Source: Bacteriovorax stolpii (GTDB lineage Bacteria; Bdellovibrionota; Bacteriovoracia; Bacteriovoracales; Bacteriovoracaceae). From it: a DNA stretch of 43,369 nt. How positions within the stretch are numbered: the first letter of the stretch is position 1; each line of letters opens with the position of its first letter. The notes under the pieces are model-generated. The model saw only the letters and a list, made by a program, of their open reading frames with translations. It was not told the DNA's origin and made no database searches. The translations under genes were made by a program, and so were the position numbers. The stretch covers positions 1-43,369 of the forward strand of contig CAMDQH010000020.1 in NCBI GenBank assembly GCA_945905815.1, in the 5' to 3' direction. Below are positions 7,229 through 19,711 of the stretch, in pieces.

Positions 7229-8266
7229 TTAAACGAATGCGTCGCCTTCCCCACCACGAGAAATAAGCGCTTTACCTTTAGCTTCAAGATCCTTAAGCTG
7301 CTGAACAATTTCCTGCTGGGCTTTTTCCACATCGGAAATTTTCGTAGGCCCCATGGACTCCAGATCTTCTTTGAGAAGAGTGGCTGCACGGTTCGACATA
7401 TTTTTAAAGAGTTTAGCTTTAACTTCGTCGGGAGCAGTCTTCAGTGAAATAACAAGTTTAGTATTATCCACACCTTTGAGAAGCTCCTGAATACCTCGAT
7501 CATCCACAAAGCAAATATCTTCAAATACAAACATGAGTTTACGGATTTCTTCAGCAAGCTCAGGATCTTTTTCCTCAACTCTTGCCATGATATTTTTCTC
7601 AGAAGTTTTATCCATAAGATTTAGCATGCTGGCTATTGGTTCAACACCACCAAGCTGTTGCGTATCAATTGAACCAAGTGTAGAAAGCTCAGTTTTAAGA
7701 ACATCATCAAGCTGTGCAATAAGTTCTGGTGAAACGAAATCGAGATTGGCAACTCGTAGAACGACTTCGGCTTGAAGACCTTCAGGTAATTTCCGAAGCA
7801 CTTCCACTTTTTTCTCTACTGGTAAATGGGCACAAATAAGAGCAATCGTTTGAGGATGCTCATTAATTAAGAAGTTTGCCAACGTTCGGGTATCAACAAG
7901 TTCAAGTGATTCAAGAGTATTATTAGAGCCAACATCAACGATCTGACCAAGTAATTGTTTGGCACGATCTTCTCCAAGAGTGCTAAGAATAAAATCACGG
8001 CCTTTATTTTCAGAAAAGAGAAGCTCCGAATCTTCATTAATAGAAGAATAAAATTCTTCCAAAACTCTCTTTACCATCCATATTTGTGATTTAGAAATTG
8101 AGGACATCGAGTTAATCATGCGCTTAACATCATTGTCTTTCATATGTTTAAAAATCAGCTTCGTGGTCGTTGGGCCCAGAGCAGATAAAAGGATTGCTGC
8201 CTTTTCCTGACCTGATAAGAGTGCATATTGCACATCTGGTTCTAAACTTTGTTCTTCTTCTGCCAC
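7229..8266 (-). CDS. fliG: Flagellar motor switch protein FliG
   Basis: 345 aa. FliG forms the top of the C ring, binds FliF through its N-terminus and receives torque from MotA through its C-terminus. Seen: N-terminal domain with LSGQEKAAILLSALG; middle domain with the diagnostic EHPQTIALICAHL and an ELSTLGSIDTQQLGGVEP segment containing the PGG-like loop; C-terminal charged ridge with FEDICFVDDRGIQELLK and AKLFKNMSNRAA, followed by a 30-residue polar tail. The start is a GTG with AGGAG about 8 nt upstream. Located directly after fliF, as in most flagellar operons. Confidence 0.97.
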   Translation of the reverse strand: MAEEEQSLEPDVQYALLSGQEKAAILLSALGPTTTKLIFKHMKDNDVKRMINSMSSISKSQIWMVKRVLEEFYSSINEDSELLFSENKGRDFILSTLGEDRAKQLLGQIVDVGSNNTLESLELVDTRTLANFLINEHPQTIALICAHLPVEKKVEVLRKLPEGLQAEVVLRVANLDFVSPELIAQLDDVLKTELSTLGSIDTQQLGGVEPIASMLNLMDKTSEKNIMARVEEKDPELAEEIRKLMFVFEDICFVDDRGIQELLKGVDNTKLVISLKTAPDEVKAKLFKNMSNRAATLLKEDLESMGPTKISDVEKAQQEIVQQLKDLEAKGKALISRGGEGDAFV

Positions 8267-8299: not shown

Positions 8300-9988
8300 T
8301 TAAGCAATTTCTTTTTGTCCATCAGCAGTATGAATCATTTCATGAATCACCTGGGCTGCCTTAGCAGGGTTAGCTTCAACCAAAGAGATAATCTTCTCTC
8401 TTAGCATATTCCCTTCAATTTTTTCCGGATTCAACCTGTCTTCAATTGAAGGAAGCACATCCTCAAGTCCTGGAAGACGCTGGTTGGCCTGAATCTTTTC
8501 AAGTTCCTCAATGGTCTTAGGTAAAAAATCTTCAATAGATTCAACTGAATTCTCAGTAAGCCATTGAATGAAAGGTCGAACAACCATAAAGAAGAAAAGA
8601 GAAATGATCGCACCAATCATTAGATACTTAGTAATATTTTTCATCAGTTCACGATTTTCACGTGCTCTCATGATTGCTTCCATTTCTGCCAAGTCTTCCG
8701 TTGCAAACTCCATATTCTTAATAACGAGTTTATCGCCACGGGTAAGATTGATCCCAATAGAACTACTTACTATTTGCTGAAAATTTTGAAGTTCATCTTC
8801 CGTCCATGCCTGATACTTCGTTATATTAACTCCGTCATCATTCACCATAGGACTACCATCTTTGGCACGAACAACAACTTTCTTACCATCAACCATGACA
8901 GCAACAGTCATACTTGAAATTTCTGCAGTTGGTTTTTTTGATTTAGTTACTGTAGATGGAACGGCCATGTTTCTTGTAACTAAGGACTTATCAACATCAT
9001 TGCGTGTTTCAGGAATACCCGGCTGTGGCGTTTCACCCGGAAGATTTGATCGTGCACCAGGAATTCCCTGAGGAGAGGGACGAACTCCAACCATTTTTTG
9101 TTCATTACGAACTTCTGAAACTGTCGCAGAGTTCTCACCATCATAAGTGGTTTGTGTTTCAACTTTTTCAGTAAAGTCCATTTTAAGAGCAACTTTCGCT
9201 ATTACTTTACCTTCACCGATTACACGAGAAAGTATTTCTTCAACTTTTTTCTCATATTGAGAGTTCAAGCGAGTTTCAAGAGCAATACGGTTAGCAGTCT
9301 CATTTGACATCTGGTCGCCATCATTTTCAGAAAGCTTTTTACCACGAGAATCAATTACGACAACGTTATGCGATCTCATGCCATCAACGGCAGAGCTTAC
9401 CAGAGATTGAATACCTTTAACTTCATCGTTGGTCATTACCACTCCACGTTCAACATCAAGAACGACAGAGCCCGTAGGCGGTTTTCTTTCAGAAACGAAT
9501 GGAGAATGTTCAGGAATGGATAAATGAATACGAGCGCGAGCTACGCCCTTAATATGCATAATGGTTTTAATTAACTCTCCCTCGAGAGCTCTTTGTTTAT
9601 TTATTTTTTGTACAAAAGAAGTTGTTCCGAAGGCCTGTTTATCAAACACTTCATAACCAACAGTGCCTGTGAAGTTGACACCTTTTTTGGCAATCTCAAG
9701 ACGCCAGATTTCAACCATATCCTCAGGGACCTGAATCGTTTTACCGTCGTCCTTAACTTGGTAAGAGATTTTACCTTCTTCCAACATACGGGCTATGACT
9801 GCAGAATCATCTTTGGTTAGATCAGTATAAAGAACTTTATAATCGGTTTTGCTTGCATAGATGATAATTCCTGCCATCAGGGTCATTACCAAAGCCGCAA
9901 TTCCAACCATTCCAATTCTTCTGGTCATGTCGAGTGACTTAAAGAAATCGATTAAGTTCTGTATCGTTTGCGTAAAGAAGTTATTCAA
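8300..9988 (-). CDS. fliF: Flagellar MS-ring protein FliF
   Basis: 562 aa, normal family length. FliF forms the MS ring in the cytoplasmic membrane, the foundation for rod and export gate. Seen: first membrane helix about residues 25-45; ring-building motifs including YKVLYTDLTKDDSAVIARML and RALEGELIKTI, then ARIHLSIPEHSPFV; second membrane helix near 447-465 (MIGAIISLFFFMVVRPF); and a C-terminal tail ending ANPAKAAQVIHEMI, the FliG-binding segment. The start codon is TTG at 9986-9988 preceded by AGGAGG; no ATG nearby fits the family N-terminus. The ribosome site lies in a short inverted repeat (see separate entry). Confidence 0.97.
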   Translation of the reverse strand: MNNFFTQTIQNLIDFFKSLDMTRRIGMVGIAALVMTLMAGIIIYASKTDYKVLYTDLTKDDSAVIARMLEEGKISYQVKDDGKTIQVPEDMVEIWRLEIAKKGVNFTGTVGYEVFDKQAFGTTSFVQKINKQRALEGELIKTIMHIKGVARARIHLSIPEHSPFVSERKPPTGSVVLDVERGVVMTNDEVKGIQSLVSSAVDGMRSHNVVVIDSRGKKLSENDGDQMSNETANRIALETRLNSQYEKKVEEILSRVIGEGKVIAKVALKMDFTEKVETQTTYDGENSATVSEVRNEQKMVGVRPSPQGIPGARSNLPGETPQPGIPETRNDVDKSLVTRNMAVPSTVTKSKKPTAEISSMTVAVMVDGKKVVVRAKDGSPMVNDDGVNITKYQAWTEDELQNFQQIVSSSIGINLTRGDKLVIKNMEFATEDLAEMEAIMRARENRELMKNITKYLMIGAIISLFFFMVVRPFIQWLTENSVESIEDFLPKTIEELEKIQANQRLPGLEDVLPSIEDRLNPEKIEGNMLREKIISLVEANPAKAAQVIHEMIHTADGQKEIA

Positions 9989-9990
9989 CT

Positions 9991-10005
9991 GAATCCTCCT
10001 GATTC
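9991..10005 (-). promoter_or_regulatory. Inverted repeat around the fliF ribosome binding site
   Basis: GAATC (9991-9995) and GATTC (10001-10005) flank CTCCT; on the minus-strand mRNA this is GAAUC-AGGAG-GAUUC, so the Shine-Dalgarno is largely in a 5-nt loop closed by a 5-bp stem, a few bases before the TTG start. It may tune fliF translation; a 5-bp A/U-containing stem is weak, so this could be chance. Confidence 0.35.
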
Positions 10006-10026
10006 AAGCCTATCTAATCATCCTAA

Positions 10027-10386
10027 TTAGATCTGCATTTTCATAATTTCACGGTAAGCATCGATCACTTTCGTTCTTACCTGGTTCATTGTTCTGAAAG
10101 CAATATCTGCTTTCTCAACTGCTAGCAATGTCTCATGCAAGTTTTGGCTTTCACCACTTGCAAGCTGCTCCATCGCAACGTTGGCTTCATTTTGCATTGA
10201 GTTTACTTTCCCAATGGACTCCGATAAAAACTCACCGAAAGATTTCGCCCCACCAGCTTCACCGACAGAAGGAGCACCTTCGATATTAAAGTTTCCACCA
10301 AAGTTATTATCAACTGAACGGCTCCAGCCCTTGGCATCGGCATTCCCAAGTGTATTCTGGAAGCCTGAAATGTCTTTAATCGACAT
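10027..10386 (-). CDS. fliE: Flagellar hook-basal body junction protein FliE
   Basis: 119 aa. FliE connects the MS ring and the proximal rod and is the first rod component exported. Seen: polar, Gly/Asn-rich N-terminus; conserved C-terminal half with SFGEFLSESIGKVNSMQNEA, then AMEQLASGESQNLHETLLAVEKA and FRTMNQVRTKVIDAYREIM, the FliE signature. The ATG at 10386 has AAGGAATA upstream. It lies 10 bp after flgC and 38 bp before fliF, preserving the common flgBC-fliEFG order. Confidence 0.96.
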   Translation of the reverse strand: MSIKDISGFQNTLGNADAKGWSRSVDNNFGGNFNIEGAPSVGEAGGAKSFGEFLSESIGKVNSMQNEANVAMEQLASGESQNLHETLLAVEKADIAFRTMNQVRTKVIDAYREIMKMQI

Positions 10387-10396
10387 GGTTTATTCC

Positions 10397-10837
10397 TTAG
10401 TTTCCGCGGCCAATTTCAAGTGTCTTCATTGCCATCTGCTTCGTAATATTTAATGCCGTCACGTTTGATTCATAGGCCCTCTGGGCTTCAATCATGTTGG
10501 CCATCTCAACCATCGGATTAATATCCGGCATGGCCACATACCCTTCTGAGTTTGCGTCAGGATGTGTTGGATCATGCTTAAAAATAACTTTATCAGTATG
10601 CACAACCTCAGTTGCATGAACTGTCTGAGCATTCTCCGCCAGTTCACCTTCTAGGATCTCAGAGAAACTATCTCTCTCTGGCTCTGAACCAAATACCACT
10701 TCTTTTCTTCTGTAAGGGCCACCCTCTGCTGTTCTTGTTGTTTGAGCGTTTGCAATGTTAGAAGAATGGGCTTCCATTCTCTTTCGTTGTGCTGCCAGAC
10801 CACTTGAACTAATTCGTAAGCTAGAGAGTAAATCCAT
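10397..10837 (-). CDS. flgC: Flagellar proximal rod protein FlgC
   Basis: 146 aa. Seen: N-terminal LRISSSGLAAQRKRMEAHSSNIANAQT, the rod-protein motif with the NIAN core, and the FlgC-type C-terminus VEMANMIEAQRAYESNVTALNITKQM. YRRKEVVF after the NIAN block is also typical of FlgC. Known: FlgC with FlgB and FlgF forms the proximal rod in the periplasm. Strong ribosome site (AAGGGGA). Eleven bases after flgB. Confidence 0.97.
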   Translation of the reverse strand: MDLLSSLRISSSGLAAQRKRMEAHSSNIANAQTTRTAEGGPYRRKEVVFGSEPERDSFSEILEGELAENAQTVHATEVVHTDKVIFKHDPTHPDANSEGYVAMPDINPMVEMANMIEAQRAYESNVTALNITKQMAMKTLEIGRGN

Positions 10838-10848
10838 CTATAGTCCCC

Positions 10849-11256
10849 TTACTTCTCAGAGTTGATGGCATATTTCATTATGCCCATCTTTTTATTAATC
10901 AACTGAACCAAGGCATCGTACATCAATTTATTCTCTGCCATTTGTGCCATTTCAGCTTCAACGTCCACAGTATTGCCATTCTCTGCTACAACACCGTTCG
11001 GGTTATCATAAATCTCTGGTTCTAGATTGTTAAAACCACCATTACCAACATTGTGATGACGTCCATCAGTCACGTTCATGCCCATCTGACCATCAACATC
11101 CAAAGCTCGTGCCAAAGCCTCTTCAAAGTCCATTTTTTTGGCCTTGAATCCTGGCGTATTAGCATTAGCGACGTTTGAGGAAATTAATTCCTGGCGCATC
11201 TCCCGAAAGTTCAGCGCGGTCGTTAGGGCCTTAAGTGTCTTGTCATTCACATCCAT
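10849..11256 (-). CDS. flgB: Flagellar proximal rod protein FlgB
   Basis: 135 aa. Seen: ALNFREMRQELISSNVANANTPGFKAKKMDFEEAL, the FlgB N-terminal rod motif (SNVANANTPGFKA), and a C-terminal EAEMAQMAENKLMYDALVQLINKKM, the paired helix of rod proteins. Length matches the family. Sits 27 bp after the AAA+ regulator, which is too little room for an extended independent promoter, so it is probably co-transcribed with it. Confidence 0.97.
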   Translation of the reverse strand: MDVNDKTLKALTTALNFREMRQELISSNVANANTPGFKAKKMDFEEALARALDVDGQMGMNVTDGRHHNVGNGGFNNLEPEIYDNPNGVVAENGNTVDVEAEMAQMAENKLMYDALVQLINKKMGIMKYAINSEK

Positions 11257-11283: not shown

Positions 11284-12225
11284 TTAGCGTAAGTTAATAA
11301 AGTAAGTAGCGCCGTCGCCTCTGTACTCATTGATTTTATTTCTAAGAGTACGGATAGAAACACCAAGTATTTTTGCAGCTTGAGTTCTATTCTCAGAAGT
11401 AAAAACTAGTGCTTTCTTAATGAGAAGTTTTTCAGCTTCTTTAAGAGACATAAGTTTGAAACCATCTTCATCAATTTCAGATGAAGAGAATTCAACTTTA
11501 CGCTCACCATTTTCGATAGCAGCAAGATCAAGAGTACTTCCTTCCATATTAGACAAAGTCTTACGGATGAAAGAACGAAGTTCGACTAAGTTTTGATTCC
11601 AGTTATAGTCAGAAAGTTTGCGAGCAGCTTCTGCGCAAAGAGATAGTTCGCCAGCAGATGTCTCTGAAGCATACTCATTAATGAAGTGACGAGCGATCAA
11701 CTCCACGTCTGTCCCTCTTTCGCGAAGTGAGATCATGTCGATCTGCGCTCCGTTGAAATATGTGTATAAAGCACGAGAGAACTTTCCTGCAGCAACTAAC
11801 TTAGAAAGATTCTTCGAAGTTGTAGCAAGGACACGAACATCTAATTCATAATCAGGAAGCTCTTGAAGGATAGTATATAGGCGTTTCTGGAAAATATCAT
11901 CCAGTGCGTCAATATTGGCAAATATTACCGTACCACCGTTGGCAACTTCTAGAACGCCACGATTGAATCGTCCTGTTTCATCACAACGGTAACCAAGCAC
12001 AATTTTCTCAACAGTTGCTGTGTCAGTACTACAATCTACAACTTCTAGACGAGCATTCTTACGAGCAGAATTTTGGTGAATGTATGATCCAATAGCTTTT
12101 TTTCCAGATCCTGTTTCTCCTGAAATCAGAATTGGTGTCTTGGTAACGGCCACATTACGTGCCATCTCAAGTGCCGAGTTGAATTTTGGGTGATTGCCTA
12201 CGAGATTAAAACCTTGAGTTAACAT
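11284..12225 (-). CDS. Degenerate NtrC-family AAA+ regulator with Fis-type HTH, flagellar cluster
   Basis: 313 aa, AAA+ domain plus C-terminal Fis-type helix-turn-helix (NRTQAAKILGVSIRTLRNKINEY, about 275-297), with no receiver domain. Walker A is kept (GETGSGKK, residues 36-43). The sigma-54 contact loop GAFTGA is missing: that stretch reads YRCDETGRFNRG and is about three residues short. The Walker B acidic pair is replaced (GGTVIFANI, Ala103-Asn104 where Asp-Glu belong). The usual arginine-finger segment FREDLxxRL reads FSRALYTYF. SLRERGTD in the sensor II region remains. It should therefore bind DNA, and perhaps nucleotide, but not hydrolyse ATP or remodel sigma-54 holoenzyme. Strong ribosome site (AGGAGG). 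Position just before flgB suggests a flagellar regulator descended from a FlrC/FlbD-like activator. Confidence 0.85.
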   Translation of the reverse strand: MLTQGFNLVGNHPKFNSALEMARNVAVTKTPILISGETGSGKKAIGSYIHQNSARKNARLEVVDCSTDTATVEKIVLGYRCDETGRFNRGVLEVANGGTVIFANIDALDDIFQKRLYTILQELPDYELDVRVLATTSKNLSKLVAAGKFSRALYTYFNGAQIDMISLRERGTDVELIARHFINEYASETSAGELSLCAEAARKLSDYNWNQNLVELRSFIRKTLSNMEGSTLDLAAIENGERKVEFSSSEIDEDGFKLMSLKEAEKLLIKKALVFTSENRTQAAKILGVSIRTLRNKINEYRGDGATYFINLR

Positions 12226-12256: not shown

Positions 12257-14947
12257 TTATAATTTCTTTTCTACTAATTCCAAAGTTGCTAATTCACTTC
12301 TACACATTTCCTTAACATGCAGAGGAACTTTATCATCGCTTGTTAAAAGACTAAGAACCTCCTTACCTTCTGCTATCCGCGAGTTCTTTATTAATGATAA
12401 CCCGTAAAGGTATCCAATTCGCGCAGTGTAAGGAGATTTTTGAAATTTTTCTCTGAAAGCTTTTGTCATAATCTCGATCTCCTTCCATTCTGGATTATTC
12501 TCTCCAGCGAATGATTCGATGAGGAGATAGGTAACTCGTTCAGACACATTCAAGATCGGTGCCGACTTCGAAGTGTTGATATCCTGGCTTAAGGCCCTAA
12601 CCACTGTTTTAAAGCGATCTTGGTCTTTTAGTTGATAAAGAGAGTCAACATAACCCATTAATAGATCAGCGGTTTGTCTGGGCGTAAGCTGATTTTTACT
12701 ATTCTGTTTAACCAGCACTTTTTCAAATTCTATAATGGCATCTGTGTAACTTTTTTGGTGAAAATAGATCAAACCACGGTAGTAAGGGTAGTTCAAAGAG
12801 TCCCTAAGTGACACTGGATATGAGGCCAGCTTGTCACTTGCGCCCTTCCAGTCCTTATCTGCCACCATTCTAATCAAGCTAAGTTCCTCGACTAATTCTG
12901 AAAGATTAGTATTTTTTACTCTTTCAACCCATATAGGAAATACACGTGGCTCCTCACCCTTAACGGTGACGAAACTCTCAAGGGCACGATCATAACTCTT
13001 ATAGAGTCCTAATTTAATAAAGGCGTCACAAACAACAAAATTCAAATAAATATTTTTAGCAACTTTGGACTCGTATTTGGTTTTATAAACTTCCCAAACC
13101 TTAACTACTTTGGCGTAATCTTCTTTAAAGTAGGCATCTTTAATTATTCCAAAAACAATTTCTGCACCATCACCTTCGAAAACTCTTCTCTCAGCTGGCT
13201 TAATCGAATCCAAAGAAATAGACGTCAAATAGGCCAGTGCCTTTTCATAATCTTTATTAGCAATAAAAAATCTCAAGCGTACGAGCCACAGAAGTTTTTT
13301 TAAGTCTGGGCTCAAGGCTCGAGACTCATCGGGTGACTGTTCAAGAAAGACTTCTGTCTCTTTGTCTGATTCATTTGGGTTAATTTTACGGGTAATTCGA
13401 AGTGCTACATAACGAAGTTTTGCTTCATAACGAGCGGCAGGATCAGTTGATCTATCGATGGCATTTTTATAAAGGACCTGCGTTTCCCCAATCTCGCGAT
13501 CCATAAGTTCATAGCCAAGAGCAAGTCTTAAACGAGCAAATGGGGCCTGAAGAAGATAAGAATAAGATGATATAAATTCATCATAAACTTTAATTGATGA
13601 TGAATAGTCACCAATTCGAAAATGACTTTCTGCTACGTTGTAGAGAATTGCTGGGTGGACAGGCTTGGCCAGTGATTTAGATATAAGATTATAACGCTTG
13701 ATAATTTCTTTTGGTTCATTTTTGGAAAGGAGCGAAAATGTTATGTATGCAATACCCATTTGAGGAGGCAAAATACTGGCAAGTTTTTTGTCATTTAAAA
13801 ATTCTTCGATTTTTTCAACTTGGTTCAATTCGGCCAGTGCATGAAGGATCGTTAGGGCGGATTGAATCACTAAACTATGATCAAATTCTCCTCTGGCCTC
13901 TACAAAAAGTTGTTTTGAGAGTTCAAGAGTCCTGACATGATCCTTCATATCTACACTGTACTGAATGAGATAGCGAAGGACAGAAGCTTTCATTTCATAG
14001 TCAGTCGTCATTTCTTTAATGTTGGAAAGAATAACCATCACAGACTGCGTGATTCCACGGTTTGGCTTGGCTATATTCCCCTTCAAAAGCGCATTGGCCT
14101 TAAGAAATTCATTCATGACAGTATTAATGTCGCGACCATATTTCTTCTCATAAAGAGTAATTGATTTATTTAACAGTCCCCACTTTTCTTCCCTGTAAAA
14201 ATTGATCGTGAGTTGCATGTGAGCTTCTTTCGGGTCATCTATATTATTACGGTCCTTAATTTGATAAAGAGAATCTGGTATTTTAGAAGCCAGATTGAGA
14301 TCTTTTTCAAGCTGGGGGATCATCGGTTTATAATCCCAGATAAAGCTAGCCCCATATCTAAAATCACGATAACCGGGATGCGGGGGTTCTTCATCTGCTA
14401 TATCATTTGTCACTTCAACGACAGGCAATATGCTGCTCTTGCGATTTAAGATATCATTTTTTGCCACTAATTTTTTTTTCTTAACCATAGCCGCATCAGA
14501 CGTGACTGGAAGTGGAAGTGGTTTTTTAAATGCTGTAGATTTCTCTGAGATTAAATCTGAATTAATCCAAAAGTCTAAAATGTATTTTTTGTCAGCATCT
14601 CGGTAAAAAGAAAATAGCTCCACAGAAGGATCTTTAAGTTTGACAGTGACAGTAGCAGGTTTGGCCGGAAAGTTATCCTTAGAGTAAGAGATACTTTCAA
14701 TATACTGGCCATCGGCATTTAATTTGGCGAGTTCCCCTGCCAATGTCTGAAACAATTCCAGATTAACCGTTTCAATATTTAAAGTGCCTTCTTTCTTATT
14801 AATAAAGAATTGATCCCTTGGAACCATAAGATTCCATCGCAAATGAGTTTTTAATGTTTCTTGATTGAAAATATCAGCTAATGCCAAAGACGTAGTAAAC
14901 GTGCTGGCCACAAATAGAGTCATTAATAGTATCGACAATATTTTCAT
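12257..14947 (-). CDS. Large exported TPR-like protein heading the flagellar cluster
   Basis: 896 aa from the ATG at 14947 (ribosome site AGGAAG); an upstream start at 14983 would only add 12 polar residues before the signal peptide. Seen: Sec signal MKILSILLMTLFVASTFTTSLALA; residues about 25-140 look beta-rich, AMIN-like (TVTVKLKDPSVELFSFY, then KKYILDFWINSD); the remaining 700 residues are alpha-helical with TPR-style repeats (for example ILYNVAESHFRIGDYSSSIKVY, split over two helices, and YYRGLIYFHQKSYTDAIIEFEKV). No enzyme motif. It is likely periplasmic, a scaffold or assembly factor. It is 31 bp upstream of the AAA+ regulator and codirectional with the flagellar genes, so a role in flagellum or envelope assembly is inferred only from position. 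Confidence 0.75.
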   Translation of the reverse strand: MKILSILLMTLFVASTFTTSLALADIFNQETLKTHLRWNLMVPRDQFFINKKEGTLNIETVNLELFQTLAGELAKLNADGQYIESISYSKDNFPAKPATVTVKLKDPSVELFSFYRDADKKYILDFWINSDLISEKSTAFKKPLPLPVTSDAAMVKKKKLVAKNDILNRKSSILPVVEVTNDIADEEPPHPGYRDFRYGASFIWDYKPMIPQLEKDLNLASKIPDSLYQIKDRNNIDDPKEAHMQLTINFYREEKWGLLNKSITLYEKKYGRDINTVMNEFLKANALLKGNIAKPNRGITQSVMVILSNIKEMTTDYEMKASVLRYLIQYSVDMKDHVRTLELSKQLFVEARGEFDHSLVIQSALTILHALAELNQVEKIEEFLNDKKLASILPPQMGIAYITFSLLSKNEPKEIIKRYNLISKSLAKPVHPAILYNVAESHFRIGDYSSSIKVYDEFISSYSYLLQAPFARLRLALGYELMDREIGETQVLYKNAIDRSTDPAARYEAKLRYVALRITRKINPNESDKETEVFLEQSPDESRALSPDLKKLLWLVRLRFFIANKDYEKALAYLTSISLDSIKPAERRVFEGDGAEIVFGIIKDAYFKEDYAKVVKVWEVYKTKYESKVAKNIYLNFVVCDAFIKLGLYKSYDRALESFVTVKGEEPRVFPIWVERVKNTNLSELVEELSLIRMVADKDWKGASDKLASYPVSLRDSLNYPYYRGLIYFHQKSYTDAIIEFEKVLVKQNSKNQLTPRQTADLLMGYVDSLYQLKDQDRFKTVVRALSQDINTSKSAPILNVSERVTYLLIESFAGENNPEWKEIEIMTKAFREKFQKSPYTARIGYLYGLSLIKNSRIAEGKEVLSLLTSDDKVPLHVKEMCRSELATLELVEKKL

Positions 14948-14977
14948 TTTGAAGACTTCCTGTCTTTCAGTTGGGGC

Positions 14978-14994
14978 GACCACATCTTGTGGTC
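14978..14994. promoter_or_regulatory. Hairpin GACCACA-TCT-TGTGGTC in the leader of the TPR gene
   Basis: Perfect 7-bp inverted repeat with a 3-nt loop, about 30-46 nt upstream of the TPR gene's ATG on the minus strand. On the plus strand it is followed by ATTTTT, terminator-like, but no plus-strand gene ends there. On the minus-strand mRNA it would be a stable 5'-UTR hairpin ahead of the ribosome site. It could be a leader regulatory element or an operator. Confidence 0.4.
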
Positions 14995-15047
14995 ATTTTT
15001 ACCTACCCCAATTCAAAGTGTAGCTTATTTTCAAGATTCCAAAAGAC

Positions 15048-15072
15048 ATATTTTTCCCATCGGCAAAAATAT
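15048..15072. promoter_or_regulatory. Inverted repeat ATATTTTT-N9-AAAAATAT in divergent promoter region
   Basis: Perfect 8-bp arms with a 9-nt GC-rich spacer (CCCATCGGC) in the 219-bp gap between the TPR gene (-) and the lipoprotein-mla operon (+). The size and spacing fit a dimeric repressor or activator site. No known regulator consensus was recognised. Confidence 0.4.
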
Positions 15073-15111: not shown

Positions 15112-15141
15112 TTACAATAACTTATTGTATAGAATTATTAT
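15112..15141 (+). promoter_or_regulatory. Putative promoter with 17-bp palindrome for the lipoprotein-mla operon
   Basis: The palindrome TACAATAACTTATTGTA (15113-15129, 8-bp arms, one central C) overlaps a possible -35 TTACAA (15112-15117), followed after 18 bp by TATTAT (15136-15141), 25 nt ahead of the ATG at 15167. A TTGACA also occurs at 15085-15090 but lacks a -10 at the right distance. The palindrome is clear; the promoter assignment is tentative. Confidence 0.4.
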
Positions 15142-15166
15142 ATTAACCGCTCAAATCGGTAAAGTT

Positions 15167-15643
15167 ATGTGGCAATTGATTCTTCTTCTTATTACTGGAT
15201 GCTCTCTTTCAATGGGGCCTGAGCAGCCTAAAAGTGCCAAAGACCATCAGTACAAAGTTCATTTTAGATTAGACAACTGGACAGAAAAAGAGGAAGACCG
15301 ATCGGACTACGTTTGGGTTAACAAGCTTGACGGGCGTATTCTCCTTTCAAATAGTTTTTGTGATGAATTCCAGGATCAGCCATTGGACAAGCTTGCGACG
15401 AAAACATTCAACACAATAGACGACCTAGAAATTGAAAAGAAAGACTATACCACTTTTAACAATCGTGAAGCCTATAGATTAGAAGGCAAAGGTAAAGTGG
15501 ATGGCGTTCCAGTAGGTTTAATCCTTTTGAACACGAGAAGAAGTAACTGCTACTTTGATTTTGTATCAATAACCCCACTTAAATCAGCTCATGAAGTTCA
15601 GAGCGACTTTGAACAATTTTTAGAATCGGTGAATTTTAAATGA
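15167..15643 (+). CDS. Lipoprotein of unknown function coupled to mlaEFD
   Basis: 158 aa from the ATG at 15167: MWQLILLLITGCSLS is a short lipoprotein signal with lipobox ITGC, so the mature protein would start at Cys12. An earlier in-frame TTG at 15125 would lengthen the N-terminus and spoil the signal. The mature part is a compact mixed alpha/beta domain with no motif I recognise, with two further Cys residues (CDEF and SNCYF). Its stop overlaps the mlaE start (ATGA), so the two are translationally coupled. It is not MlaA-like, MlaB-like or MlaC-like by inspection. A role in lipid transport is inferred from the operon only. Confidence 0.75.
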   Translation: MWQLILLLITGCSLSMGPEQPKSAKDHQYKVHFRLDNWTEKEEDRSDYVWVNKLDGRILLSNSFCDEFQDQPLDKLATKTFNTIDDLEIEKKDYTTFNNREAYRLEGKGKVDGVPVGLILLNTRRSNCYFDFVSITPLKSAHEVQSDFEQFLESVNFK

Positions 15644-16404
15644 TCACGGCCAAAGTAAAAACTAATTTACAGCTGGTAGGAGAAATTACTGAGCTCTTTA
15701 AAGAGTTCGTTCGCTGTCTTTACACTCGTCCCTTTTATCTTGGAAGAATTTATGAGCAAATTGTTCACCTTGGAATAGGTTCACTTCCCATCACGCTGGT
15801 AATCGGAACCGTGACGGGCATGGTGATGACTCTTCAATTCGGATACGGTTTAGAAAAATTCGGCGGCACTCTATATGTGCCGGCAATAGTCTCCTTATCT
15901 CTTTTGCGTGAGTTGGCACCGCTCTTTACTTCATTATTAATTGCCGGCCGGATAGGCTCGGGCATTAGTGCTGAGATTGGCGCAATGAATGTTAGCCAGC
16001 AAATCGATGCGATCCGCGCCCTTGGTACCTCTCCTGTTCGTGTTCTAGTTGTGCCAAGAATCCTGGCGGCAGTAGTATCCCTACCACTCCTCGGGGTCTT
16101 ATCCGGTTTTATGGGGATATGCGGAGGCCTGATCATCGCCTATACCGAATTTAGTATGCCAGTCGGTTTTTACGTTAATAAAGTTCTTAGCACTATTGGT
16201 TTGATGGATATTGTTGGTCTCATGATCAAGTGTGCCTTTTTTGCGCTGATCATCTCACTTCTGGCCTGTTATCGGGGTTTAAAAACTACCGATGGGACTC
16301 GAGGGGTTGGGAATGCAACCATTTGGGTGACCGTAACGTCGTCGATTATTATTTTAATTTCCGATTTCTTTTTAAGTAAAATACTTCTTTTATTATTTGG
16401 ATGA
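15640..16404 (+). CDS. mlaE: Phospholipid ABC transporter permease MlaE
   Basis: 254 aa, family-typical length. Inner-membrane permease of the Mla (MCE) system that moves phospholipid between inner and outer membrane. Seen: amphipathic N-terminus, about five hydrophobic segments, and the MlaE core block SLLRELAPLFTSLLIAGRIG, followed by SGISAEIGAMNVSQQIDAI and RALGTSPVRVLVVPRILA. It overlaps the lipoprotein gene by 4 bp and is followed immediately by mlaF. No MlaB-type STAS gene is in the operon. Confidence 0.95.
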   Translation: MITAKVKTNLQLVGEITELFKEFVRCLYTRPFYLGRIYEQIVHLGIGSLPITLVIGTVTGMVMTLQFGYGLEKFGGTLYVPAIVSLSLLRELAPLFTSLLIAGRIGSGISAEIGAMNVSQQIDAIRALGTSPVRVLVVPRILAAVVSLPLLGVLSGFMGICGGLIIAYTEFSMPVGFYVNKVLSTIGLMDIVGLMIKCAFFALIISLLACYRGLKTTDGTRGVGNATIWVTVTSSIIILISDFFLSKILLLLFG

Positions 16405-16405
16405 C

Positions 16406-17134
16406 ATGGAAACACTTTTAGAAATAAAAAATCTCTCCAAGAGCTTTGACGATAAGCCGGTCCACTGTGGAGTGACTTTTAATCTATACAAGGGTGAAAC
16501 AATTGGTTTACTGGGTAACTCAGGCACGGGAAAATCCGTTTTACTTAGATCACTCATTGGTCTGGAAGAAATAGACAGTGGTGAGATATATTACAGAAAA
16601 CAAAAAGTGAATGGATTAAAAGAAGAAGAGCTGTTTAAAATACGAACCAAAGTTTCTTACTCATTTCAGAATGGAGCACTTTTTGACTCTGTATCTGTAT
16701 ATGAAAATATCGCCTACCCACTTTTTGAACATACTAAGATGAAAGAAGCAGAAGTTGATGCAAAAGTTATGGAAATTTTAACTTTGGTCAATATGGCCGA
16801 ATCCAAAGATCTTATGCCCTCCGATCTCTCAGGTGGAATGCAAAAACGGGTTGGACTGGCCAGGTCAATGGCGCTTAATCCTGAGGTTCTTCTCTATGAT
16901 GAGCCCACCGCAGGTCTTGATCCAGTTAACGTTGAATTGGTTCTAAATTTCATGAAGGAATTTAAGAAACAAGGATTCTCAGGAATCTTTGTCACTCATG
17001 ACATACCAGCTGCTAAAAAGATCTGTGACCGTTTATTAATTCTCAAAGACGGTAAGATTTATTTTGATGGCTCAGTTGATCAGTTCGAAAAAAGTGATGA
17101 CCCTTTTATTAAAAATTTTTCAAATTCGAATTAA
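16406..17134 (+). CDS. mlaF: Phospholipid ABC transporter ATPase MlaF
   Basis: 242 aa from the ATG at 16406, two bases after the mlaE stop; an in-frame TTG at 16397 would overlap mlaE by 8 bp and is possible. Seen: Walker A LGNSGTGKSVLL, Q-loop YSFQNGALFDS, signature LSGGMQKRVGLARS, Walker B VLLYDEPTAGLDP and switch His in FVTHDIPAA. TAGLDPV and GALFDS are characteristic of the MlaF/MCE-associated ATPase group. It powers lipid transport with MlaE in the inner membrane. Confidence 0.95.
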   Translation: METLLEIKNLSKSFDDKPVHCGVTFNLYKGETIGLLGNSGTGKSVLLRSLIGLEEIDSGEIYYRKQKVNGLKEEELFKIRTKVSYSFQNGALFDSVSVYENIAYPLFEHTKMKEAEVDAKVMEILTLVNMAESKDLMPSDLSGGMQKRVGLARSMALNPEVLLYDEPTAGLDPVNVELVLNFMKEFKKQGFSGIFVTHDIPAAKKICDRLLILKDGKIYFDGSVDQFEKSDDPFIKNFSNSN

Positions 17135-17143
17135 GGAACAGAT

Positions 17144-17992
17144 ATGCATTTCAGGAAAAAAGATGAAAGAAACTTTTTTAAAGTAGGACTTTTCGTTTCA
17201 GGTCTTACTTTTGTTCTCATGATTATGGTTGTGAGTATAAGCAAAGAAAATTCTTTGTTTGAAGCGACAGTTAGTATGAAGGCCCACGTAGACAATGTTC
17301 AAAATTTAAAGCCTGGATCTTATGTTGAACTAAAAGGCATTAAGGTCGGAAACGTAACAGAAATTGAGATTTTAGCCGAGGAAAAAGTTGAAATACGATT
17401 TACCATCCTTGCCTCTCAACTGAAATGGATAAAACAGGATTCTAAAGTATCAATTTCGACTGCGGGATTAGTTGGTGACAAATATCTTGAAATTTATAAT
17501 GGAACTCCAACAGCTCCGGCCTTTGACCCAGACAAGGATTTTCTCTTTTCAGAAAACCTTGCCGACATGAAACAGCTTATGAATAAAGGTGAATCAATCG
17601 CTGTGATTACGGAAAGGATCCTTAGCCGTTTGGACCAAATAATCTACAACATGGACGATGGAAAGAAGTTAGTCGAAACAGTTAACTCGCTTAGTAAGGC
17701 CAGTTTGAATGTTGAAAAAATAACTCAAGAGCTGCGCGAAGCTCAACTTGGACAAACAGTTAAAAATGTTAACTTAAGTATGGCGAAACTTGAAAAGGCC
17801 TCTGGATCGATTGAACGAATAATGACAAGAATTGAGAAAGGTCCGGGAACGATGAATTCATTAATTTATGATGAAAGTCTTCATGATAGCCTCAGAGCAC
17901 TCCTTGGTGGGGCCTCTCGAAATAAAGTCATCAAATATTTCATTCGTGAGTCGATCCAAGATTCAGAACGTAAAAAAACGACTGCAGACTAG
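17144..17992 (+). CDS. mlaD: MCE-domain substrate-binding protein MlaD
   Basis: 282 aa. Seen: one N-terminal membrane anchor (VGLFVSGLTFVLMIMVVSIS), one MCE domain about residues 40-125 with KPGSYVELKGIKVGNVTEIE, VSISTAGLVGDKYLEI and the typical G-x-x-V-G-x-V core, then about 150 residues of helical, heptad-like sequence. E. coli MlaD is about 183 aa, so this protein has a long C-terminal helix like other single-MCE tunnel-forming proteins; it may bridge part of the periplasm. Good ribosome site (AAGGAACAG). Last gene before the terminator at 18168. Confidence 0.92.
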   Translation: MHFRKKDERNFFKVGLFVSGLTFVLMIMVVSISKENSLFEATVSMKAHVDNVQNLKPGSYVELKGIKVGNVTEIEILAEEKVEIRFTILASQLKWIKQDSKVSISTAGLVGDKYLEIYNGTPTAPAFDPDKDFLFSENLADMKQLMNKGESIAVITERILSRLDQIIYNMDDGKKLVETVNSLSKASLNVEKITQELREAQLGQTVKNVNLSMAKLEKASGSIERIMTRIEKGPGTMNSLIYDESLHDSLRALLGGASRNKVIKYFIRESIQDSERKKTTAD

Positions 17993-18196: not shown

Positions 18197-19711
18197 TTAT
18201 AATTCTAAATTCTTTTTCTTCATTTTCTCAATCAGAGTCGTCCGATTGAGGGTCAGCAATTTGGAAGCTTGATTCTTATTTCCTCGAGTTCGATTCATGG
18301 CCTGCATGATTAAGGAGTCCTCAATGTCAGAAAGAATCTGCTTTAAATCAACTCCAAGGTCCGGAAGTTCAAATAAAGTTTTATAGGTCTGAGTTGCTAG
18401 AGGGTTCGATCTGAAAATATTGGCAGGAAGATCCTCTGGAAGAATTTCATTTCCACCTCGTAGAATTACCAGACGCTCAATGACGTTCTCAAGTTCACGA
18501 ACATTTCCTGGCCAGTCATAACCAATGAGAAGATCCATTGTGAGTGAAGCAAAGCTTATTTCATTAGAATGATCGGCAGAAATGAATCTGTCTAGAAAAT
18601 GAGAAATAAGAAGTGGGATATCTTCACGGCGCTCTTTCAAAGCCGGCATTCTTATCGGGATAACATTAAGTCGATAAAATAAGTCTTCGCGGAATTTTCC
18701 TTCCGTAACGGCCTTATCAAGATCACGGTGAGTGGCGGCGATCACACGCACATCAATCGGAAGTGTTTCGGCAGATCCAATAGGCTCAATAACTCTTTCT
18801 TGAAGAACGCGAAGAAGCTTAACCTGAAGAAGAAGAGGCATATCGCCAATTTCATCCAAGAAAATGGTTCCACCTTGGGCCAATTCAAAACGACCCTTAC
18901 GGTTAGAAATCGCTCCGGTGAAAGATCCTTTAATATGTCCAAAGAGTTCGCTCTCAAGAAGTTCCGAAGGAATAGCTCCGCAATTAACAGTTATTCGATT
19001 TTTTTGAAAACGGTGAGACAGTTTATGAATAGCAGAAGCTACAAGTTCTTTACCAGTTCCAGAAGGTCCCATAATAAGAATCGTCGAATCAGTTTTTGCG
19101 ACTTTGCTGATTCTTTCAAAAACATCACGCATAACACGTGATCTTCCGATCATGCCTTCAAAATTATCTTCAACTGTTGGACGCTCAATTTTTAATTTAG
19201 ATGGCAATCTGCCGCGAGCACCATCTGCAAAGAGACCTTCACCTTCATTGAGTATTTCTGCTGGAAGATTTGCCGAAAGCTTCGCCTGGAGAGCTTGAAT
19301 AACAAGCCTCTTCAAATTTTCAGGCTCAAAAGGCTTAGTCAAATAATGAAAAACACCCTTTTTAGTCGCAGCTATGGCCGTTTCGATACTGGCAAATCCA
19401 GTCATGACAATCGAGACAAACTCAAAGCCCTTCTCTTTTAAGATATCGATTAGAAGTAATCCATCAGAGCCCTGCTCAAGACTAATATCAGTGATCAAGC
19501 AAAAAGGATTTTCACGAGGATGATTTTTTGCGAATTCCATTAAGCAATCTTCGGCACTCGAATAAAGCTGAACTTTGAGCTTCAAGGTTTGCTCTAGGTA
19601 TCGCTTTAAGCTGATGCCAAGAAGGTTATCGTCTTCTACGATTATAATAGGCGGGAAATTGCGGTCTTTAGACCCATCAAAAGCCTGATGAAGAAAGTTA
19701 ACGTCATCCAT
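18197..19711 (-). CDS. NtrC-family sigma-54-dependent response regulator
   Basis: 504 aa with three domains. Receiver about residues 20-140: acidic pocket VEDD, phospho-acceptor Asp75 in LITDIS, Thr in IVMTGFA, Lys in LTKPF. Sigma-54 AAA+ about 185-425: Walker A GPSGTGKE, intact contact loop GSFTGA in [13 protein letters not shown], Walker [23 protein letters not shown] arginine-finger segment, [11 protein letters not shown] and [11 protein letters not shown]. Fis-type HTH at the C-terminus ([20 protein letters not shown]). All catalytic elements are present, so it should activate sigma-54 promoters on phosphorylation. No cognate kinase lies beside it. Flagellar control (FlrC/FleR-like) is possible given the nearby cluster, but pili or stress control is equally open. 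Confidence 0.93.

Follow-up and report, generated by a model that had tools for sequence, protein, structure and literature searches.

A degenerate FlbD/NtrC-type regulator ahead of flgB in Bacteriovorax stolpii and its intact orthologues across Bdellovibrionota

We analyzed a stretch of 43,369 nucleotides from Bacteriovorax stolpii (contig CAMDQH010000020.1; "the window" below), which carries a flagellar operon on the reverse strand. Within this operon lies a gene for a regulator of the FlbD/NtrC type that has lost its motifs for ATP hydrolysis and sigma-54 contact, and an intact NtrC-type regulator is encoded about 6 kb away. The genes are:

18197-19711, minus strand: intact NtrC-type response regulator, with receiver domain, GSFTGA, LDE and FREDLFYRL
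12257-14947, minus strand: TPR-repeat protein, encoded by the operon's first gene (GTG open reading frame from 14983; likely start at the ATG at 14947)
11284-12225, minus strand: degenerate FlbD/NtrC-type regulator, 313 amino acids, with an AAA+ core (residues 8-240) and a Fis-type helix-turn-helix (residues 258-302)
10849-11256, minus strand: flgB
10397-10837, minus strand: flgC
10027-10386, minus strand: fliE
8300-9988, minus strand: fliF, with a leader hairpin TTGAATCAGGAGGATTCAG at 9989-10007
7229-8266, minus strand: fliG, followed by fliH, fliI and fliJ down to 4610

The degenerate regulator's reading frame lies 31 bp past the TPR gene and 27 bp ahead of flgB, which agrees with a preliminary description of this DNA that had placed it directly ahead of flgB. 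The gene order is constant in relatives (TPR gene, regulator, flgB, flgC, fliE, fliF, fliG, fliH, fliI), and in most families of the phylum a TPR-like gene of about 900 codons stands ahead of the regulator or of flgB. The divergent neighbor of the operon is an mlaE-mlaF-mlaD-like transport operon (15125-17992, plus strand), as in most of the families examined.

In Pfam, the degenerate regulator matches Sigma54_activat (PF00158; 81.4 bits against a cut-off of 20.2), AAA_lid_14 and HTH_8 (35.7 bits), each above its cut-off. We compared its motifs with those of the intact NtrC from the same window and of solved activators. The Walker A motif is intact (GETGSGKK), and so is the FlbD-type Fis helix-turn-helix (NRTQAAKILGVSIRTLRNKINEY), which is conserved throughout the orthologues of the phylum. 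The GAFTGA segment is replaced by RCDETGRFNRG and is a few residues shorter; the Walker B motif LDE has become FAN (Ala103-Asn104); and the arginine-finger segment FREDLFYRL has become FSRALYTYF, with both canonical arginines lost and one arginine standing one position later. The sensor II arginine is lost as well (NVREL to NLVEL), and NC has become DC at Asp64, which we take to be the position of the glutamate-switch asparagine of PspF. There is no receiver domain, and the match to the NCBIfam FlbD model starts at model position 119. The preliminary description had reported an intact Walker A and helix-turn-helix, a shortened ETGRF segment without GAFTGA, the Ala103-Asn104 pair and an altered arginine-finger segment. 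All of this is borne out by the motif alignment and by Pfam, and the losses had if anything been slightly understated, as the sensor II arginine, Asp64 and the missing receiver were not listed. We found no functional DE pair or GAFTGA elsewhere in the whole protein, so the observation stands.

The predicted structure retains the AAA+ fold (pLDDT 78) and matches NtrC1 (TM 0.83-0.85) and FlrC (about 0.8; both values normalized by the target), as well as the AAA+ domain of FleQ. VpsR (7v2b) is among its best matches in the PDB by sequence and is matched by structure too. Our literature searches found no description or study of this gene.

The degenerate form is fixed in the window's own family within Bdellovibrionota ("the family" below). 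Our genome scan collected 42 related loci, of which all except one are orthologues; most come from records titled Bacteriovoracaceae, Halobacteriovoraceae or the like, and a few from records with broader or doubtful names. In a sample of the phylum, all 50 genomes of the family had the degenerate form, with scores of 455-569 bits versus at most 231 bits in other families. Among 60 distinct orthologues from the family, the Walker A residues Gly39, Gly41 and Lys42 are invariant, as are Asn104 and Arg151; Asp64 is present in 58, and residue 103 is Ala, Ser, Glu or Val. All 60 also have the shorter, RxDETGRFNRG-like replacement loop, in which Arg80, Gly85, Phe87, Gly90 and Glu93 never vary. Across the family, the arginine-finger region follows the pattern F[SYHCTLQ]R[AGPS]L, and the sensor II region reads N[LVIY]xEL. 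Thus the substitutions, whose conservation in relatives the preliminary description had proposed to check, are kept.

Could the gene be a decaying relic that has no function of its own? In other lineages the regulator has shrunk to 240 amino acids (locus L151) or is absent (L149, L150 and L156), as might be expected of a relic. Within the family, on the other hand, the gene is universal, and comparisons with five close relatives gave dN/dS values of 0.04-0.08 for the whole gene and 0.04-0.09 for the AAA+ part. Conservation per column is 93% in the helix-turn-helix tail and 69% in the AAA+ part. Because the degenerate form is in all 50 family genomes, has a low dN/dS, and keeps Lys42, Asn104 and the loop residues invariant, we conclude that it is not decaying, and we consider a relic very improbable. 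A pseudogene or a sequencing artefact is ruled out by the 60 distinct intact reading frames and the low dN/dS.

At the same locus in other families, we mostly found a standalone protein of about 310-345 amino acids with the full GAFTGA, LDE, FREDL and NVREL motifs; intact orthologues occur in at least 10 other families, and the one from family f9 has extra N-terminal sequence. FlbD was the best family model for 4 of the 5 orthologues tested, with intact ones scoring 400-424 bits; for the orthologue at L161, which has a receiver domain, the FlbD model came third. Judged by these orthologues, the degenerate regulator is a descendant of an intact FlbD-type sigma-54 activator of the flgB operon.

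Degeneration is not confined to one family. The orthologue from family f12 has other lesions (the GAFTGA loop is lost and the Walker B motif reads AE, with the arginine fingers kept), the one from f6 has a deleted L1 loop, and those from f20 and f23 are partially degenerate. Since the orthologue at this locus is intact in most other families, the sigma-54 machinery was lost in the window's family and, independently of it, in two or more other lineages. In a tree of FliF plus FliG, families f1, f6 and f12 fall in separate clades, and parsimony requires a minimum of 3 state changes, although the exact number of losses hinges on weak forks. Assuming that the complete catalytic set was never regained, at least three losses took place.

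We then considered the promoter of the operon, for which two elements are relevant:

15051-15069, minus strand: conserved dyad TTTTTGCCGATGGGAAAAA, a candidate regulator site; the distance from its TTGCC down to the -10 box is exactly 44 bp
15017-15022, minus strand: -10-like box of the operon's sigma-70-type promoter, reading TACACT here and TACAAT in most relatives, with no -35 consensus

Nearly all loci from the family have a -10 box of the form TA[CAG]A[AC]T and a TTGCC-N3-GG-like element 44 bp upstream (range 44-46), and no -35 consensus was found before the operon in these loci. Downstream of the -10 box and before the start of the TPR gene, the leader contains a conserved palindrome, GACCACANGANGTGGTC (14978-14994, minus strand); in the window its outer stem is TTGGGG/CCCCAA.

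In most other families, a strong -24/-12 site precedes the operon, with scores of 13.0 or more out of a possible 15.1 in 22 of 26 regions. In contrast, a significant sigma-54 promoter was found in none of 29 regions from the family (best score 11.9 within 350 bp), and the best score before the operon in the window was 9.4 (p = 0.69). The difference between other families and this one is significant (Fisher test on calls at p ≤ 0.01, 4.6e-8). The half-site TTTTGCC, taken from the family, occurs in 10 of the 26 promoter regions from other families versus 2.3 expected; it is more frequent there than any other of the 105 permutations of its letters and comes second among 4,244 7-mers, in a test that was not fully blind because these regions had been inspected beforehand. 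The enrichment is in the half-site alone, and a matrix for the full dyad trained on the family was not clearly enriched in the other families. Together, this evidence points to a changed promoter type for the regulator's own operon. The candidate dyad may be the degenerate regulator's binding site, but another factor could bind it instead.

The change of promoter is not strictly coupled to degeneration, and we rejected that idea. A sigma-54 promoter persists before the operon in f6 and f20, which have degenerate regulators, and also where the regulator is absent (judged by score at L149 and L156 and by eye at L150), while L128 has an intact regulator and is missing the sigma-54 promoter. Because the sigma-54 site is kept with a degenerate or absent regulator, the intact regulator is probably not the only activator of this promoter. 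We also rejected the dyad as a signal for a widespread regulon: elsewhere in the genome, the exact sequence TTGCCNATNGGNAA has only one copy, at the edge of an unrelated reading frame, which gives no sign of a wide regulon.

The operon's leaders contain another kind of element, a hairpin that presents the Shine-Dalgarno sequence in its loop:

14952-14966, minus strand: hairpin AAGAC-AGGAA-GTCTT in the TPR gene's leader, with the Shine-Dalgarno sequence forming part of its loop
12227-12239, minus strand: leader hairpin GGAC-AGGAG-GTCT, resembling a CsrA site, Shine-Dalgarno in the loop, 1 nt before the degenerate regulator's start codon

A CAGGANG hairpin precedes the regulator in all 39 of the family's leaders that we examined, and most of the TPR leaders examined have a Shine-Dalgarno-loop hairpin; in both sets there are compensatory changes in the stem. 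Within the window, hairpins of at least 4 pairs that carry CAGGANG together with a Shine-Dalgarno loop occur only before the TPR gene, the regulator and fliF and at about 619 (minus strand), inside a reading frame of the flagellar region. Rfam gave no match in the leader. The genome encodes CsrA (identified with Pfam at L188), and its gene adjoins fliW-like and flgL-like reading frames, which we named by eye. The compensatory changes and the presence of csrA suggest that CsrA likely controls both the operon and the degenerate regulator, with the hairpins before the TPR gene, the regulator and fliF as its likely sites.

The closest family model is FlbD of Caulobacter (NCBIfam NF050807), which has the same order of AAA+ and helix-turn-helix domains and the same flagellar context, and which acts on flagellar promoters as an activator and also as a repressor (PMC3930126). 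However, the degenerate regulator scores only 158 bits against the equivalog cut-off of 750, and it lacks the receiver, GAFTGA, Walker B, arginine fingers and sensor II arginine. The flagellar activators FlrC, FleQ and FlgR share its fold and, probably, the flagellar role of its intact relatives, but, being sigma-54 activators, they have both GAFTGA and an AAA+ core that is catalytic. FleQ also acts independently of ATP at the sigma-70 promoter of pel (PMC10723142). The NtrC proteins of Rhodobacter and Caulobacter that lack GAFTGA, and VpsR of Vibrio cholerae, are reported to act at sigma-70 promoters, in part without hydrolyzing ATP, and NtrC of Rhodobacter capsulatus requires ATP binding but not hydrolysis (PMC10274813). 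Like the degenerate regulator, the NtrC proteins of R. capsulatus and Caulobacter have an L1 loop without GAFTGA and a retained helix-turn-helix; they differ in being nitrogen-control response regulators with receivers, whereas the degenerate regulator has no receiver and has lost its catalytic residues too. VpsR shares the fold of enhancer-binding proteins and the action on sigma-70 promoters, but it has a receiver-type domain and binds c-di-GMP.

We propose that the degenerate regulator is a DNA-binding, nucleotide-binding but non-hydrolyzing regulator of ordinary (sigma-70-type) promoters, beginning with the promoter of its own operon; we put the probability of this reading at roughly 60%. 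The unchanged Fis-type helix-turn-helix would bind DNA, and the AAA+ fold and Walker A loop would be retained as a structural or sensing module. Given the residues that are missing, the protein is predicted neither to hydrolyze ATP nor to remodel the sigma-54 polymerase. The preliminary description had likewise argued that it is not a working sigma-54 activator, which the motif losses support, and its suggestion of a DNA-binding, perhaps nucleotide-sensing regulator is very probable, given the strong purifying selection and the retained helix-turn-helix and Walker A. The regulator would probably act at the sigma-70-type promoter of the operon running from the TPR gene through itself, flgB, flgC, fliE and fliF to fliG, that is, by autoregulation. 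The dyad is at about -59 to -41, and conserved sequence continues from it into the place of the missing -35 site; a protein bound there could contact the polymerase, as an activator, or block it, as a repressor.

Two alternatives keep the regulator at sigma-54 promoters. Some other activator probably allows sigma-54 to go on serving flagellar genes, because RpoN is present in the genome and a sigma-54 promoter is conserved before flgF. In 15 relatives (L171-L185), the -24/-12 box of flgF has a TTGCC[CT]A element on each side, no more than about 20 bp away; a further conserved block resembling TTCGACAAGGTTTCA also lies upstream of flgF (in the window's genome, on contig C8 near 52959). The regulator might be a specialized subunit that joins the rings of an intact activator, such as the NtrC at 18197-19711, and lends them DNA binding or an inactive subunit, so that it tunes or blocks the sigma-54 activation of flagellar genes. 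The preliminary description had suggested that these two proteins form a pair in which the degenerate one antagonizes or tunes flagellar transcription, which is possible. The retained AAA+ fold, the invariance of Arg151 and the replacement loop, and the TTGCC elements on either side of the flgF promoter are all consistent with mixed rings, as is the position of the NtrC gene immediately before the operon in part of the family, and mutating the helix-turn-helix of the Caulobacter NtrC that lacks GAFTGA affects the FlbD regulon (PMC12421884). But the protein has lost sensor II and both of its arginine fingers, elements that work at the contacts between subunits or close to them. Furthermore, the recognition helix of the degenerate regulator (SIRTLRNKINEY) differs from that of the intact NtrC, so the two proteins do not necessarily bind common sites; and in only part of the family does the NtrC gene lie directly ahead of the TPR gene. 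Overall, we think that mixed rings are unlikely.

The flgF elements could instead mean that the regulator is purely a competitor, which would exclude an active enhancer-binding protein from TTGCC sites by sigma-54 promoters, much as FlbD represses fliF. That binding by FlbD can repress (PMC3930126) makes this conceivable, but the flgF elements have just a half-site in common with the operon's dyad. A genome search with the flgF pattern, allowing up to 3 mismatches, found no further copy of the arrangement; it is little informative, as flgF itself was missed (its copy is one pattern base short). We consider pure competition improbable.

Returning to a sigma-70-type regulator of its own operon, a broader evolutionary account seems possible to us, and we offer it tentatively. 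The activator of the flgB operon may have been disarmed independently at least three times (in the window's family, f6 and f12, and perhaps in f20), with DNA recognition kept each time. In the window's family, swapping the glutamate-switch pair (Asn to Asp64 and Glu to Asn104) may have produced a regulator locked in its nucleotide-bound state, and the operon may have exchanged its sigma-54 promoter for a sigma-70 one that arose around the site of the regulator itself. The phylum would then hold a natural series that begins with an activator, passes through a pseudo-enzyme regulator and ends in loss. That individual enhancer-binding proteins can lack GAFTGA was already known, but here intact, catalytically dead, truncated and absent states can be set side by side at one syntenic locus within a single phylum. 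This allows us to ask how a sigma-54 activator turns into another type of regulator and whether the promoter type follows, and it opens a testable way into the control of flagella in these bacteria.

Two other enhancer-binding-protein-like genes in the same genome, L007 (G000:C3:63873) and L008 (G000:C32:18449), also lack GAFTGA, which brings the total to 3 of 9.
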